NCBI GenBank assembly: GCA_903887485.1
Contig: CAISPV010000106.1
Location: 1-49,034 of the forward strand
DNA: 49,034 nt
Reading direction: 5' to 3'
Source: an uncultured Desulfobulbaceae bacterium
Lineage (GTDB): Bacteria > Desulfobacterota > Desulfobulbia > Desulfobulbales > Desulfocapsaceae
How positions within the stretch are numbered: the stretch's first letter is position 1; every line of letters starts with the position of its first letter. Both the position numbers and the translations under genes were made by a program. The notes under the pieces were generated by a model. It was not told the origin of the DNA. It searched no databases and was given only the letters and a program-made list of their open reading frames with translations. Positions 14,648 through 33,774 of the stretch are shown here, piece after piece.

Positions 14648-15352
14648 ATGAACACAAACAAAGCGTCAACGATTAACCTACTGGCATTAGCGGCATTTTT
14701 GGCTACATCTCTTCTGGCCAATACCAGCATGGCGGCAGAAACATACGATGCCGACAAATATGGCCCTCAAGAACCAATTGTCTGGACGACTCCGACAAAG
14801 TCAACATTCACCCATAAAACCCACACCATGGATGCCGGCCTTGCATGCGACTCCTGCCATGAAAAGATCTTTGCCATGGAAAGGGGCTCTGCTGAGAAGG
14901 CAGGTGATTTTTCCATGAAATCATTCAAGGAAGGGAAGTATTGCGGAAGCTGTCATGATGGCAGTACCGCTTTTAATACTACCACCCAATGCGGTTCCTG
15001 CCATTCTGCTCCTGAAACCCCAATTATCTTTACCGCGCCGGTCAAAGCGGTATCCTTTGAGCATTCCATCCATCTAAAAAAAGGTGGCCTTACCTGTGAA
15101 GCATGCCATAAAGAAGTTTTTGCCATGAAGAAAGGCTCCGTGGAAGAGGCAGAAAAAACCGGTACGCATCAAGGCGACAAAAGGGAATACCTGGAGAAAC
15201 TCCACAATAAATACTGTGGCACCTGCCATAATGCCTCTCAAGCCTTTGGCTACCTGACCCGCTGTACCGTCTGCCATATTGGCGTGAAAGGGAACAATGC
15301 CCTGCAAGGTGGCGATCAGAAAAAGCAAAAACACGGCGACAGTAAGCACTAA
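14648..15352 (+). CDS. Periplasmic hexaheme c-type cytochrome (two triheme modules)
   Basis: An electron-transfer cytochrome exported by Sec: signal peptide about 1-30 ending TSMAA. Six CxxCH heme sites begin at residues 67, 99, 115, 150, 190 and 206, arranged as two similar triheme modules (about 50-120 and 132-212), each with an FxH..H segment, an L-x-C-xx-CH site and a KY-CGxCH site. This is the c7/c3-like triheme fold, here duplicated. It has a good AAAGGAGG site and is followed by NrfD and ferredoxin genes, so it is probably the periplasmic electron acceptor or donor of a quinone-linked membrane module. The C-terminal 20 residues are basic and low in complexity. Confidence 0.92.
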   Translation: MNTNKASTINLLALAAFLATSLLANTSMAAETYDADKYGPQEPIVWTTPTKSTFTHKTHTMDAGLACDSCHEKIFAMERGSAEKAGDFSMKSFKEGKYCGSCHDGSTAFNTTTQCGSCHSAPETPIIFTAPVKAVSFEHSIHLKKGGLTCEACHKEVFAMKKGSVEEAEKTGTHQGDKREYLEKLHNKYCGTCHNASQAFGYLTRCTVCHIGVKGNNALQGGDQKKQKHGDSKH

Positions 15353-15430
15353 GAATATCTCTGGATAAGTGAAGACGACGATCTCAACAGTTATAATTAC
15401 AACTAAAATATTACTTAAAAAGGTGAACAG

Positions 15431-16738
15431 ATGACTGGAAGTATGGTTAATATTTCAAAGAGATGGGGGTATCATGGCATTGATGCCCTGAAAAAAGCGA
15501 GCCCAGGCTATCTCATGCTCATGGGAGCCTTTGCCCTCCTGGCATTGGCCGGAGTGTCGGTAGGCTTACACGGTATGGTTGTCGGATATCATCATGTCTA
15601 TGGAGTAAGCCGTGAAATCTCCTGGGGCATACTGATCTCTGCCTATGTTTTTTGTGTCGTTACCTCGACAGGACTCTGCATTATTTCTTCCATTGGCCAT
15701 GTTTTTGGCGGTGAGGCCTTTATGCCCATTGCCAAGCGCGCGGTTTTCATGTCCATTATCTTTATGCTTGGTGGTTTCTGCATTATTTTCTTTGACATTG
15801 AAAACCCGTTCAGGATGGCTATCTACAACGTGATATCCCCCAACCTGAGCTCAAACATGTGGTGGATGGGAACCCTGTATGGGGCCTATCTGGTCTTTAT
15901 GATCATCGAGTATTATTTCCTTCTTGAGCAGAACCACAGTCTTTCCCGGCTGATGGGATTCTTTGGACTGGTTGTCGGTATCGCCGCCCATAGTAACCTG
16001 GGTGCTGTTTTCGGAATGTTGCATGGCCGCCCATTCTGGTATGGCCCTTACCTGCCTATTTATTTTATCTTCTCAGCGGCCATGTCTGGCGGCTGCGCCA
16101 TCATGTTCGTCTCCACCCTGGCCTGGAAGATCAACCCAGAGATCATGAATCAGCGTATGGAACGCGCCATTAAGGCCGTCTGTCAAGTCACCATTTTCCT
16201 GATCTCTACCATCATGTTCTTCACCATCTGGAAAATCGTTACCGGTATGGTGTCTCATGACAAATCCCTTGTCATCATGTCTCTCGTAACTGGAGATTAT
16301 GCCATCAACTTCTGGTGTTTTGAGATCTTCCTCGGCATGGTTCTCCCTTTGTTTCTCCTTCTTCGTTCACGGGGAAATAATTTCAACATGATCATGTGGG
16401 CCACTGGACTCATGATGGTTGGTATTTTCTTTATGCGTTACGATATTGTGATCCCAGGTCAGATGATCTCTGTTTATCACTCACTTGGTGTCGAAGAAGC
16501 GCTTGATATCATCAAATACACACCGTCATTCCATGAAATCATGGCCGCTCTCTTTGGTCTTTCTGTTATCTGCTTCGCCTATTTTGCCGGAGAAAAAATG
16601 CTCAACGGGCATCAACTGGAGAAACACGAGATTGTGCCAGAAGGCGGATATATCTGTCCTGGTTGTGGAGCCATCCACTTCATGGAGGAAGGCGAGACTG
16701 TGGAAGACGCCATGAAGCGTCATCATAAAATCTGGTAA
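15431..16738 (+). CDS. NrfD/PsrC-type integral membrane quinone-interacting subunit
   Basis: A 435-residue polytopic inner-membrane protein with about nine or ten hydrophobic helices. NrfD/PsrC-family subunits exchange electrons between menaquinone and periplasmic [Fe-S] or cytochrome partners without bound heme. Charged and aromatic residues inside the helices (for example IEYYFLLEQNH) and the flanking cytochrome and ferredoxin genes support this. An extra C-terminal extension with a CPGC-A-IHF zinc-ribbon or rubredoxin-like motif (about residues 410-420) follows the last helix and is not part of the core family. No molybdopterin or other catalytic subunit gene is adjacent. Confidence 0.88.
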   Translation: MTGSMVNISKRWGYHGIDALKKASPGYLMLMGAFALLALAGVSVGLHGMVVGYHHVYGVSREISWGILISAYVFCVVTSTGLCIISSIGHVFGGEAFMPIAKRAVFMSIIFMLGGFCIIFFDIENPFRMAIYNVISPNLSSNMWWMGTLYGAYLVFMIIEYYFLLEQNHSLSRLMGFFGLVVGIAAHSNLGAVFGMLHGRPFWYGPYLPIYFIFSAAMSGGCAIMFVSTLAWKINPEIMNQRMERAIKAVCQVTIFLISTIMFFTIWKIVTGMVSHDKSLVIMSLVTGDYAINFWCFEIFLGMVLPLFLLLRSRGNNFNMIMWATGLMMVGIFFMRYDIVIPGQMISVYHSLGVEEALDIIKYTPSFHEIMAALFGLSVICFAYFAGEKMLNGHQLEKHEIVPEGGYICPGCGAIHFMEEGETVEDAMKRHHKIW

Positions 16739-16779
16739 AAACAGGTAATTGCCTGAGACCATCGAAAGGAACCAATACT

Positions 16780-17607
16780 ATGACATTTCCTAAAATAGAT
16801 TTAAACAAACTGAAAAATGAGGGTACCGAATCGGTTACCATCAAAGAAAGACGTAACTTTCTCAAACTGGGCTTTGCCATTACCGGTGTCTATGCCAGCG
16901 GCAAGATACTCTCTTTGTCTTCCACGTTTAGTGGTGTCGCCTATGCCTCCGGCGGCTCTGATTTTGTGGAGAAATATCCGTATAATCCGCATTACAGCAT
17001 GGTCATCCGTCAATCGCTGTGCATTGACTGTGAAAAATGCGTAGAAGCCTGCAACAAAACGAATCATGTCCCGGAATATGGCTACCGGACCCGTATTCTT
17101 ACCCGAAAGTATCAGGGACAACTTGATAAACAGGTAGAATTTATTCCTGTCTTGTGTAACCACTGCAACGATGCCCCGTGCGTCAGGGCGTGTCCGACCA
17201 AAGCGACCTATAAAGATCCGGTCACCGGTATCGTCCGTATGGAGAGCAAAAAATGCATCGGCTGTAAAACATGTATGCTGGCCTGTCCTTATGACGCCCG
17301 CTATTTTAACGCGGGACGGCATGCCATTGACAAATGTGATTTCTGCTGGGAAGAAAGGTTATCAAAAGGAGAAACCCAGACCGGCTGTTCTTCCGCCTGT
17401 CCAACCGGGGCGCGAACATTTGGCAATCTGACCGATCCAGAGAACATTGTCTTCAAACTGGTACACCAACTAGAAGAAAGCGTCTGGGTCCTCCGGCCAG
17501 AAGATGGCACAAAACCTAATATCTTTTATATGAAAGGGAATATGGTGTCTGTGGATAACATTTTGAAAGGGCAGAAATTTATATATTCTGATCCGGCCAA
17601 AAGCTGA
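16780..17607 (+). CDS. Tat-exported 4x[4Fe-4S] ferredoxin subunit (DsrO/HybA/PsrB-like)
   Basis: The N terminus has a twin-arginine-type signal (ERRNFLKLGFAI), although the strict motif is ERR-NF rather than SRRxFLK, followed by a hydrophobic stretch. Four cysteine groups for cubane clusters follow: CIDCEKCVEAC, CNHCNDAPCVRAC, CIGCKTCMLAC and CDFCWEE...CSSACPTGA, the classical four-cluster pattern of DMSO-reductase-type electron-transfer subunits. It would sit on the periplasmic side and link NrfD with the hexaheme cytochrome. Third gene of a compact three-gene operon closed by the terminator at 17632. Confidence 0.92.
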   Translation: MTFPKIDLNKLKNEGTESVTIKERRNFLKLGFAITGVYASGKILSLSSTFSGVAYASGGSDFVEKYPYNPHYSMVIRQSLCIDCEKCVEACNKTNHVPEYGYRTRILTRKYQGQLDKQVEFIPVLCNHCNDAPCVRACPTKATYKDPVTGIVRMESKKCIGCKTCMLACPYDARYFNAGRHAIDKCDFCWEERLSKGETQTGCSSACPTGARTFGNLTDPENIVFKLVHQLEESVWVLRPEDGTKPNIFYMKGNMVSVDNILKGQKFIYSDPAKS

Positions 17608-17631: not shown

Positions 17632-17675
17632 AAAAAAGGGTAAACCTGATATCGGGTTTACCCTTTTTTATTTTA
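17632..17675. terminator. Strong rho-independent terminator (bidirectional)
   Basis: AAAAAAGGGTAAACC (17632-17646) pairs with GGTTTACCCTTTTTT (17655-17669) around a short loop and continues into a T-rich tract. It ends the cytochrome/NrfD/ferredoxin operon. Because the arms are A- and T-flanked on both sides it would also end the minus-strand transcript of the cobalamin riboswitch and its small ORF. Confidence 0.9.
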
Positions 17676-17698: not shown

Positions 17699-17803
17699 TC
17701 AGATTCCACCTCGTCGCCAAAGACGCATGACCATCTGAAAACTGTCCCAGTCCTTGATCCAAAGAAGCATCATCTTGGTCACCACCCGTTCCTGTAGAAT
17801 CAT
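17699..17803 (-). CDS. 34-residue small ORF downstream of a cobalamin riboswitch
   Basis: ATG at 17803 is preceded by a perfect AGGAGGT site (17808-17814) four bases upstream. The predicted peptide is tryptophan- and methionine-rich (MILQERVVTKM..., then LLWIKDWD and RLWRRGGI), with basic and hydrophobic faces, and ends in TGA 24 bases before the shared terminator. It is the only well-initiated frame between the riboswitch and that terminator. I do not recognise it. It may be a small regulatory or membrane-active peptide, or the degraded remnant of a B12-regulated gene; the clean ribosome site argues for translation. Confidence 0.5.
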   Translation of the reverse strand: MILQERVVTKMMLLWIKDWDSFQMVMRLWRRGGI

Positions 17804-17864
17804 TTGAACCTCCTGTAAAAAAAGCAGTTGAGGTCGAGGGAAAAAAAATCCCCAAACCGACAAG

Positions 17865-17897
17865 TTGATGGTCCCGCACAGAATGCGAATCCATCAA
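17865..17897 (-). other. Hairpin in the leader between riboswitch and small ORF
   Basis: On the minus strand TTGATGG (17897-17891) pairs with CCATCAA (17871-17865) and encloses a second CGCA/TGCG stem. A run of eight T lies about 16 bases further on, too far for a classical intrinsic terminator. It may be part of the riboswitch's regulatory output. Confidence 0.35.
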
Positions 17898-17973
17898 TGT
17901 TATCGACCCGAGGATGTCCCTTTATATCCACAAGATCACACACTCATTACCGATAATCCACGACGGTAACGAT

Positions 17974-18001
17974 TCAGCATGTTTAAAAATCAACATGCTG
18001 A
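17974..18001 (-). other. Ten-base-pair hairpin directly after the riboswitch
   Basis: TCAGCATGTT pairs perfectly with AACATGCTGA around an AT-rich loop and begins two bases after the closing helix of the riboswitch. Its position suggests an expression platform that competes with the P1 helix, but no T-tract follows, so classical termination here is doubtful. Confidence 0.4.
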
Positions 18002-18003
18002 CT

Positions 18004-18180
18004 TTTCAGGCAGGTCTTCTGACTTCCGGATCACTCTCTTCATGCGCCTTCCCATCATATTCCAGTTATTCACAGAATATGACAGTGACTTTATGCATGA
18101 TTCGTCCCCGGTTACAGCGGCGGGCCCATCTTCGATTTTCACGAAGTTCCCTTTTACTGTCCTGTAACGGACACCTGAAA
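18004..18180 (-). promoter_or_regulatory. Cobalamin (AdoCbl) riboswitch
   Basis: On the minus strand the conserved parts occur in order: a closing P1 helix TTTCAGG (18180-18174) with CCTGAAA (18010-18004), AAAAGGGAA, the GCCCGCCGCTGT core, AGTCACTG, GGGAAGG, and the canonical 3' B12 box AGTCAGAAGACCTGCC. Length (177 nt) is normal for the class. These RNAs usually repress cobalamin synthesis, cobalt/B12 uptake or B12-independent isozymes when the coenzyme is abundant. Here none of those genes follows; only a 34-codon ORF lies downstream before the terminator. Confidence 0.93.
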
Positions 18181-18301
18181 TTATTCTATCATATTTAATA
18201 GGCAAGCAGAATTTTGTCAACAAACAAAAGGAACAATACACTCTATATTGATGAGCACAATAAAAATAGATACAACATAAAGCACAACCACTGTATCTTC
18301 A

Positions 18302-31710: not shown

Positions 31711-33774
31711 TTAGAACCGCCAGGTGATTTTCCCGTAAACGCTGCGCGGCACCTCGCTACTCAATTGCCCAGAACCGGCACTGAATTCGGAATAATGGTT
31801 GTCGGTCAGGTTTTGCGCCGCCAGGCTCAGTTCCACATCCTTACGCGGCTGCCAACCCAGACGCAAATCGAGACGGGTATAGGCCGGAATAGTCTGACTG
31901 GTCAGTCCGCAGACGTAATAAATTGCCGTATCCAGGCTCACGTTACGGGGCAAATTAAGATAGGAATGCAACTGCCACTGCTGGCGTGGGCTGTTGCCGG
32001 ACACTTGGGACACGGTGGCATCATTGCTGTCCGGGTCAGTCACCAGATACATCCGCAAAAGGCTGAAGCTGCCGCTGAGCCGCCATAGGTCGGTCGCTTG
32101 CCAGTTCGCGGTCACTTCCGCGCCGTACACCTGCCCATGGGCCTTATTGTCGGCAACCAACGGCACGACGAGGTACGTCGGTTGCAACGGGTCATCCAGG
32201 TAGGGCGTGCCCATCTCATGGGTGACAAAGTTTTTGTAGTCGTTGTAAAATACGGTAGCGTCGGCTGAGAGGTTCTGGCGCAACTTGTCACGCCACCCGG
32301 CTTCGTAAGCAATCAGACTCTCCGATTCTAAGTTGGGGTTGCCCTCAATCGTTACCACCGCCACGGACGGGGCCGACAAGGTCAGGCCGGACGGAAACGC
32401 ATTTGCAGCGACATTGACACCGATTTCACCGCGGGATGGCGTATGGACCGCTCGCGACACTGCCGCCCACAGGGCGCCGTCTGCACCGGTCTTCCACAGC
32501 AGGCGCACGTTGGGTTGGAGCTCGACGCCGGTGTAATCGTTATTCTCGAGCTTTGACCCCACGGTAAAATGCAGGCGATCCTCCATCCACACGCTTTCAT
32601 CCTGCACGAGAGCGCTGAACAGCTTGAGTGTCTTGTTCGCGGGGTTAAACCAGGTGAGGGTTCTCGTGCTGGAAGTTTCGTCCTTGGTCTGGCGGCAACC
32701 CACACCCCACACCAGCTCGTGGCGCCCGGCCCATGGGAAGCGGTGCTGGAAGTCCAGATCGTAAGTGTCACGCAGTTCTCTCAACGCCGCAGGATCGCGG
32801 CTGGTTTGGTCATAGTAGAACTGCAACGACCAGTCGGCACCACCATCCAGCACGTGACGCCAGTTCGTTCGCAGATAGTTGCCGCTGACATGCGTGACGT
32901 CGGAGAAAGTCCTGACATACGGAGGCGTAAGCATGGGATCGGTCACCGTCTGTCCTGAATTTCCCGAGTAAGATTCCCCTTGCATGGTCAGCGTGTCTTT
33001 ATTCTGCAGATCGTAGTCGATGCGAAAACCGCCGCGCTGCTGATCCCATTTATCGGCGGCATCGGCACCCGTGGTATCCACGAAGTTATCCCGGCTGAAG
33101 TGCTTGGCGTAAGCGCGGAAATAGCCTGATTCCCCCAGTTTCCCCCCATAGCGTAATCCCTCCTGGTTGTGTTCGAGGTTGCCGGTTGCCACCGTCACCA
33201 GACTGCCTTGAGTATCCTGGGCCTTCTTGGTGATAATGTTGATCACGCCATTCACCGCATTGGCACCCCACAACGTCCCGCCCGGCCCGCGGATCACCTC
33301 GATCCGCTCAATATCTTCCAGCAGGGTGTCCTGCACATCCCAGAACACACCGCTGAACAACGGCGTATAAACCGTGCGGCCGTCAATCAGTACCAGCAGC
33401 TTGTTTGCGAACAGGTCGTTAAAACCGCGGGAGGAAACCGCCCACTTGTTGGCGTCGAACCGGGCGACATCGAGGCCAGGCACCATGCGCAACAATTCTG
33501 GAATACTGGTCATGCCGGAGCGGCGGATGTCTTCCTGAGTGAGCACGAAAATAGCCGCAGCGGACTCGGAAAGCCTCTGCGGTGTTTTGGCCACCGAGGT
33601 GACCTCGATGTTCATCAACTCTTCAATGGAGAGTTCGGTGAGGCCCGTTTCTGCCGCCGCATCCTCGGCCATAACGGGTTGGGACAACGCCAAACCCGTT
33701 ACAACAACAGCCAGCACCCAAGCTGAAGAACGTGAATCACCCATACCATCGCCAATATGAGAAACCACCATCAC
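31711..33774 (-). CDS. TonB-dependent outer-membrane receptor
   Basis: 687 residues. A signal peptide ends VMAED; a short periplasmic stretch carries the TonB-box-like LTELSIEELMNIEVTSV; the plug domain shows PELLRMVPGLDVARFD, RGFNDLFANKLLVLIDGRTVYTP and IERIEVIRGPGGTLWGANAVNGVINIITK; then a 22-strand beta-barrel ends in the aromatic terminal residue (VYGKITWRF). It belongs to the class near vitamin B12 and colicin receptors. No TonB, ExbB/D or ABC importer genes are nearby, and it is followed by yfiR- and kinase-type genes, so it may act mainly in signalling. Ligand unknown. Confidence 0.93.
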   Translation of the reverse strand: MMVVSHIGDGMGDSRSSAWVLAVVVTGLALSQPVMAEDAAAETGLTELSIEELMNIEVTSVAKTPQRLSESAAAIFVLTQEDIRRSGMTSIPELLRMVPGLDVARFDANKWAVSSRGFNDLFANKLLVLIDGRTVYTPLFSGVFWDVQDTLLEDIERIEVIRGPGGTLWGANAVNGVINIITKKAQDTQGSLVTVATGNLEHNQEGLRYGGKLGESGYFRAYAKHFSRDNFVDTTGADAADKWDQQRGGFRIDYDLQNKDTLTMQGESYSGNSGQTVTDPMLTPPYVRTFSDVTHVSGNYLRTNWRHVLDGGADWSLQFYYDQTSRDPAALRELRDTYDLDFQHRFPWAGRHELVWGVGCRQTKDETSSTRTLTWFNPANKTLKLFSALVQDESVWMEDRLHFTVGSKLENNDYTGVELQPNVRLLWKTGADGALWAAVSRAVHTPSRGEIGVNVAANAFPSGLTLSAPSVAVVTIEGNPNLESESLIAYEAGWRDKLRQNLSADATVFYNDYKNFVTHEMGTPYLDDPLQPTYLVVPLVADNKAHGQVYGAEVTANWQATDLWRLSGSFSLLRMYLVTDPDSNDATVSQVSGNSPRQQWQLHSYLNLPRNVSLDTAIYYVCGLTSQTIPAYTRLDLRLGWQPRKDVELSLAAQNLTDNHYSEFSAGSGQLSSEVPRSVYGKITWRF

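Follow-up and report, generated by a model that had tools for sequence, protein, structure and literature searches.

A cobalamin riboswitch followed by a conserved 34-codon reading frame in Desulfobulbales

The riboswitch and the 34-codon reading frame

The window analysed here, i.e. the whole stretch of 49,034 nucleotides from an uncultured Desulfobulbaceae bacterium, carries on its minus strand a small unit in which a cobalamin riboswitch is followed by a single short open reading frame (ORF). The aptamer (17992-18193, minus) matches the full RF00174 model (positions 1-189) with 100.6 bits in cmscan (E 4.4e-24) against a gathering score of 31.5, and RF00174 is the sole family above its gathering score in the Rfam scan of the window. 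The initial annotation had described a complete 177-nt riboswitch on this strand; it is indeed complete, but it spans 202 nt, with its start 13 nt further upstream. The genome contains three cobalamin riboswitches in total, one of them in the window; of those elsewhere, one lies upstream of a cbiK-like gene (L001, PF06180) and one upstream of a thiC-like gene (L002, PF01964). The ThiC-family gene behind the latter riboswitch (G000:C75 8278-8490) scores above the cut-off of the NCBIfam thiC model and below that of the BzaB model; either thiC would be under B12 control or the gene may serve lower-ligand synthesis. In one relative (G014, L013) the variable arm of the cobalamin aptamer is longer by ~100 nt, as the alignment shows by an insertion.

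The ORF (17699-17803, minus) runs from an ATG at 17803-17801 to a stop codon at 17701-17699 and encodes a 34-residue microprotein, MILQERVVTKMMLLWIKDWDSFQMVMRLWRRGGI. As the initial annotation had noted, it is preceded by a good ribosome site, AGGAGGT (17814-17808, minus), and a purine-rich site is found before the ATG in 13 loci of the genus. Behind the ORF lies an inverted repeat, GGGTAAACC...GGTTTACCC, followed by a T run (17632-17663, minus); this unit-end terminator, which was also located by script (L004), is common to the unit and to the convergent Fe-S gene that comes next (16780-17607, plus). The earlier statement that the riboswitch is not followed by any B12, cobalt, metE or nrd gene thus holds within the window, where the terminator and the Fe-S gene are found instead. 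Upstream, a terminator-like site (18343-18307) closes a same-strand PF13801 gene; given this site and the convergent gene at the other end, the unit seems to be transcribed on its own. A TTGACA box (18215-18220, minus), invariant in 13/13 genus sequences, and a TAAATA (18197-18192, minus) 17 nt past it are candidates for the -35 and -10 elements and, judged by their sequence, may form the promoter of the riboswitch-ORF unit; a consensus promoter scan returned no minus-strand promoter at this site. The convergent Fe-S gene belongs to a row of cytochrome c7/c3, NrfD and Fe-S genes (14648-17607, plus), which we take to be a membrane redox module of the type found in sulfate reducers.

Between aptamer and ORF, the hairpins reported earlier are present, but they number three rather than two, and one of them is the terminator preceding the peptide. 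The post-aptamer hairpin CAGCATGTT...AACATGCTG (17975-18000, minus) is a predicted fold that overlaps the 3' end of the Rfam match; its sequence varies among several genus loci with pairing still possible, as seen by inspection. The P13-like hairpin (17946-17970, minus; loop UCGUGGAUUAU) shows covariation, with 19 double-change cells versus 5.7 in shuffles, and in a larger alignment double changes occur at 7/7 pairs, although this alignment was fitted to the structure and is hence biased towards it. GUGG of its loop (17961-17958) is complementary to CCGC of L5 (18123-18120). This complementarity of the GYGG loop was seen by eye, with one differing L5 serving as a check (L002, CCAA versus UUGG). 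The available text of PMC9600662 describes an L5-L13 kissing loop for the AdoCbl class of cobalamin riboswitches, and by analogy the P13 loop of the window riboswitch may kiss L5.

The P13-like hairpin is followed by a conserved 27-nt element, UGAUCUUGUGGAUAUAAAGGGACAUCC (17912-17938, minus), which shares sequence with the 5' arm of the terminator and is a candidate antiterminator. Counting against that role, the outer helix of the element, though 80.9% paired, shows nearly no double changes. The terminator hairpin (17849-17914, minus) has a predicted energy of -31.2 kcal/mol and abuts a tract of eight T (17841-17848, minus), so the RF00174 aptamer of the window has a terminator as its expression platform. 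Across 73 platforms, a terminator hairpin abutting a T run was clear to the script in 66, the script halted at an inner T run in five, and two had none. This arrangement suggests an off-switch, in which bound corrinoid would terminate transcription ahead of the ORF, and, with corrinoid scarce, the conserved element before the terminator would act as an antiterminator. The covariance model of the platform was limited to P13 and the conserved element because the first alignment misplaced the 3' terminator arm of short-loop rows. It matches 195/257 genomes of the order Desulfobulbales, and the platform also precedes other genes, e.g. cbiK (L001), without an intervening peptide.

One copy of the platform, consisting of a P13-like hairpin, GGATANNAAGGGACATCC and a terminator (L024 2516-2619; G031:C72; L024/L043), lies before a cobT gene (TIGR03160 above cut-off) with no cobalamin aptamer detected there at E<=5. 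This copy prompted the idea that the element is a standalone regulatory element, either a second sensor or, judged by eye, an ANTAR/CsrA protein-binding site. The idea was dropped and the element filed as an expression platform, since it usually follows cobalamin aptamers: RF00174 is present in 15 of the 16 scanned loci from the order-wide search. The cobT copy itself may be a decayed riboswitch or a platform working without a sensor.

Conservation of the peptide and its linkage to the riboswitch

When 38 relatives were searched at the DNA level, the unit was recovered in the genus, and a peptide profile found the peptide in 13 of 17 genus genomes, the window's own included. Riboswitch, hairpins and ORF co-occur in the same fraction, 13/17, and this joint recurrence is more than expected by chance. 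The four genus genomes without a peptide match are 55, 63, 76 and 94% complete; given the last value, at least that genome (G015) seems truly to lack the peptide. The absence from G015, and from 141/257 order genomes in all (some of them incomplete), indicates that the peptide is dispensable.

Several features indicate that the ORF evolves as a coding sequence. The dN/dS ratio between the window and its genus relatives is 0.00-0.22 (nine of 12 pairs computable, dS being saturated in three), and that between the window and a further relative (L026) is 0.24. Among one-base codon differences, 510/757 are synonymous versus 19.6% expected from random changes, and 17, 15 and 25 of 33 columns vary at codon positions 1, 2 and 3, respectively, with 834 of 100,000 shuffles reaching as high a value at the third position; the sequence pairs are non-independent, and these statistics are thus descriptions rather than probabilities. 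Start, ribosome site and frame are kept in the 13 genus units, and a script found a terminator-like hairpin behind the ORF in 11 of them. Over 54 order-wide rows, M1, W19 and Q23 are invariant, and E5, D18 and D20 are kept in at least 90%. The 34-codon ORF is a real gene under purifying selection.

The peptide is widespread in the order, whose members are sulfur-cycling bacteria. Profile A3, built from 14 peptides, matches 111/257 order genomes at E<=0.1, and profile A7, with 54 rows, matches 116/257 at E<=0.001, covering 38 of 69 genera and 75 of 148 good genomes. Within the phylum, 6/395 genomes match in each of two samples, all of them in the order Desulfobulbales. We examined 115 loci, namely the 13 genus loci (own included), L026, 60 stronger, 20 weaker and 20 more loci, and L023; at least three places of the A7 search (G114, G154 and G207:C284) lie outside this set.

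A cobalamin riboswitch lies upstream of the ORF in 114 of these 115 loci, the window included, so that the pair of riboswitch and peptide, for which the initial annotation had suggested searching related genomes, recurs well beyond the 13 genus genomes. It was found in 73 of the first 74 loci (72 by the 3' box, and L140 by Rfam), by the box in 21/21 of the 20 weaker loci plus L023, with Rfam above threshold in 19 of those 20, and by both box and Rfam in all of the last 20. The exception (L115) lies at a contig end, with just 71 nt preceding the ORF. The distance from box to start is 71 to 458 nt. As the profiles contained peptide letters alone, the riboswitch linkage of hits beyond the starting loci is not circular. 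In a scan of named records, 98 stretches matched and 42 were confirmed as relatives, 41 of them with the box. The record titles among the relatives include Desulfocapsa, Candidatus Electrothrix aarhusensis, Desulfurivibrio, Desulfopila and Desulforhopalus, and NCBI taxonomy places Desulfocapsaceae and Candidatus Electrothrix within Desulfobulbales; outlying labels are Desulfobacteraceae (L192) and Patescibacteria (L183, the relative without the box). At one locus (L118; G037:C53 17005-19170), the cobalamin aptamer has three DNA matches within ~2.2 kb of a single contig, and the peptide ORF follows the first of them.

Gene neighbourhoods and copies outside the order

The surroundings of the unit differ among lineages. 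In the genus, the unit faces the Fe-S gene in ten of 13 cases and has a different neighbour in three, which indicates that the unit stays together when its surroundings differ. The peptide has no close same-strand partner in the genus, in Desulfocapsaceae where a gene named from its sequence as FeoB-like converges, and in the cable bacterium Electrothrix aarhusensis (L108). In 22 of 60 loci (L090-L149), a TonB-receptor-like ORF, judged from its N-terminus, lies directly behind the peptide, and in 14 of the 60 the two overlap by 4 nt, 11 at ATG. Plug and barrel domains were found in 4/4 tested TonB-receptor-like ORFs; NCBIfam B12-receptor models matched these receptors only below their cut-offs, and the receptors are thus not assigned as btuB. 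TonB plug proteins occur in 56/56 genomes searched, including those with an orphan peptide. On the window's own contig, a TonB plug domain lies at 33244-33573 (minus) in a 719-aa open frame. In four of the loci L090-L149, one of which was tested, a GFO/IDH-like gene lies 92-132 nt behind the peptide. At two loci (L144 1522-2493 and L109 1168-2139), the peptide is followed after 3-4 nt by the start of a membrane-like protein of 324 residues; it matches nothing in Pfam or NCBIfam at E<=1e-5 and is perhaps cbtX, the candidate cobalt transporter of PMC545781.

In six of the 115 loci (L146 and L225-L229), the peptide frame stays open into a CbiK-like protein that is headed by a signal-peptide-like stretch, and PF06180 was matched by 4/4 tested continuations. 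By inspection, L225, L226, L229 and L146 have no ribosome site before the start that heads the signal-peptide-like stretch. At the head of the stretch, L227 and L228 have a possible start, and in L225, L226 and L229 translation could begin further in; the CbiK-like part may therefore be translated separately. The B12-regulated CbiK of the window's genome (L001) begins at the signal-peptide-like stretch, without the peptide extension.

Outside the order, 27-residue relatives were found in two Patescibacteria of the same class, at L183 3998-4078 and, on the minus strand, at L249 1516-1599 (G800); G800 and L183 make up 2 of the 285 genomes searched, with a profile that already contained the L183 row. 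Both copies lie between HIT-like and pgk-like genes (named from sequence), with ribosome-site-like bases in front and a convergent gene behind, and neither has a match to the cobalamin riboswitch. They differ from each other at 19/84 bases, with ten changed codons synonymous and five not. From the sequences, the copies look like the product of a transfer; a binning error in a metagenome-assembled genome is possible, but the common gene order speaks against it.

Possible function of the peptide

The window peptide matches no family in Pfam, NCBIfam or PHROGs, hence also not the CbiK domain PF06180, with which six of its relatives share a frame. With 51 or 54 members as queries, hits were scattered over one or two members each (best E 0.016 in Pfam and 0.01 in PHROGs), and NCBIfam returned none. 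Among PDB sequences, each of the five rows found was a 13-residue match to actin-like protein 6A (best E 0.06), and no convincing relative was seen. AlphaFold2 predicts one helix (residues 2-32, pLDDT 81) with a pTM of 0.36, too low to say much, and the hydrophobic moment is not above that of shuffles, 21% being as high for the window peptide and 53% for L126. No description of the peptide was found among open-access papers as judged by their titles and the openings of their abstracts. Rodionov et al. 2004 reported that the sole B12 element of Desulfotalea psychrophila precedes cbiK-cbiL (PMC545781), and the available text of that paper mentions no small ORF.

The switch itself is of a known kind. 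It shares with RF00174 members of the AdoCbl class the full aptamer, the P13-like hairpin with a GYGG loop, CCGC in L5 and the terminator, and differs from the usual cobalamin riboswitch in controlling a 34-codon ORF alone. In M. tuberculosis, the conserved small ORF rv1805A is under an Mbox, as given in the available part of PMC12810186. Within that part, the layout is alike, with a conserved small protein controlled by a riboswitch and a homologue outside the riboswitch context, whereas the sensor there responds to Mg2+ and the platform is translational with Rho. The peptides described here are a new family of this known type, riboswitch-controlled small ORFs, and the peptide is the sole product in some lineages.

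We consider it probable, at roughly 0.68, that the locus is a self-contained gene for an autonomous B12-regulated microprotein with a role in trans in cobalt/corrinoid acquisition. When corrinoid is bound, the AdoCbl-type riboswitch would fold, the P13 loop would kiss L5 and the terminator before the ORF would form, leaving the gene off. When corrinoid is scarce, the conserved element would antiterminate, and read-through would allow the 34-residue protein to be made. The product, in which a W and a Q are invariant and the core reads KDWDxFQ, would probably be helical and cytosolic and may act in trans on cobalt/corrinoid uptake or insertion. Its most likely partners would be the cobalt chelatase CbiK or a TonB-dependent uptake system, because relatives have an operon or a reading frame in common with them; the proposed action is thus deduced from the company that the peptide keeps, i.e. 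cobalt chelatase and TonB receptors. Counting against a link to B12, the Patescibacteria copies adjoin HIT-like and pgk-like genes rather than B12 genes. The codon-level selection, the order-wide spread and the near-constant riboswitch linkage favor the B12-controlled small protein that the initial annotation had offered as one of its options.

The alternative that survives best is that the ORF is a translated leader, a ribosome landing pad that couples by termination-reinitiation to a downstream TonB receptor or CbiK, with an inert peptide and the window copy as a relic. The 14 loci with a 4-nt overlap to a TonB-receptor-like ORF fit such coupling, and the available part of PMC11260477 describes, for the genes behind a B12 riboswitch in M. 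tuberculosis, the coupling of uPPE2 to PPE2 by an AUGA overlap. As far as that part of the source goes, the layout of B12 riboswitch, short ORF and 4-nt overlap is the same in those 14 relatives, but the peptide here is conserved over an order and has no gene behind it in the window. There, a terminator and a convergent gene follow the ORF, and no coupled gene overlaps or abuts it. Furthermore, the residue pattern (M1, W19, Q23; E5, D18, D20) is kept order-wide, dN/dS is low among genus members, whose ORF has no coupled gene behind it, and the two copies from Patescibacteria lack a riboswitch match and are followed by a convergent gene. We therefore regard an inert leader as unlikely for the peptide.

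Some riboswitch-controlled transcripts, such as EutX and Rli55, act as RNA, and RNAs of this type carry ANTAR-protein-binding hairpins. A B12-controlled transcript working in this way, with the coding incidental, had also been proposed earlier, and the leader is in fact strongly structured and partly invariant. However, the conserved part belongs to a platform present in 195/257 order genomes and also found before cbiK (L001) without the peptide, and the conservation of the ORF is codon-like, which makes a regulatory RNA improbable. About as improbable is a peptide that is the broken-off N-terminal extension of an exported CbiK, made together with the pre-protein or cut from it. The six loci in which the frame runs through the signal-peptide-like stretch into a CbiK-like protein, four of them without a ribosome site before the start heading the stretch (L225, L226, L229 and L146), point in this direction, but the joined form is confined to 6/115 loci, five of which have possible starts at the stretch (L227, L228) or further in (L225, L226, L229), 22/60 loci precede a TonB-receptor-like ORF instead, and the B12-regulated CbiK of the window's genome has no extension. 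The least credible is a deletion remnant, which the initial annotation had also offered. The gene lost would be that of a TonB receptor or cbiK, with the riboswitch and the ORF left to decay. Other families do have such a gene behind the peptide, but the reading fails the check that the initial annotation had set for it because the peptide is conserved, the 13 orphan genus units being under purifying selection with start, ribosome site and frame retained, 510/757 one-base codon differences synonymous and a terminator-like hairpin 3' of the ORF in 11/13.

Returning to the autonomous microprotein, a wider and more tentative reading, which we hold at somewhat less than even odds, would make it the founding family of an undescribed, trans-acting microprotein of mostly ~27-60 residues with the core KDWDxFQ. 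Under B12 limitation, Desulfobulbales would produce it to direct the uptake or insertion of cobalt/corrinoid. Some Patescibacteria would have captured it and run it without the riboswitch; within this wider reading, the target would extend beyond the B12 regulon. The copies in Patescibacteria, if they are functional, widen the question of the target. If the autonomous microprotein is right, it would be an addition to B12/cobalt homeostasis in Desulfobulbales, cable bacteria among them. Riboswitch targets serve the assignment of function, and here a B12 sensor points to a protein that is absent from the searched family libraries, perhaps due to its shortness. With a riboswitch, a tiny gene and nothing more, the unit is a simple test case, and orphan riboswitches can expose missed genes.

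The window peptide had no match among phage and plasmid records. A relative was found on an IMG/VR contig (L247 1-3261; IMGVR_UViG_3300037424_001422), where it lies at the contig end with the tail of the riboswitch platform, ~1.5 kb from an integrase-like gene named by eye. We read it as host flank rather than as a phage gene, and the nearby integrase-like gene suggests an integration site adjoining the riboswitch-peptide unit.
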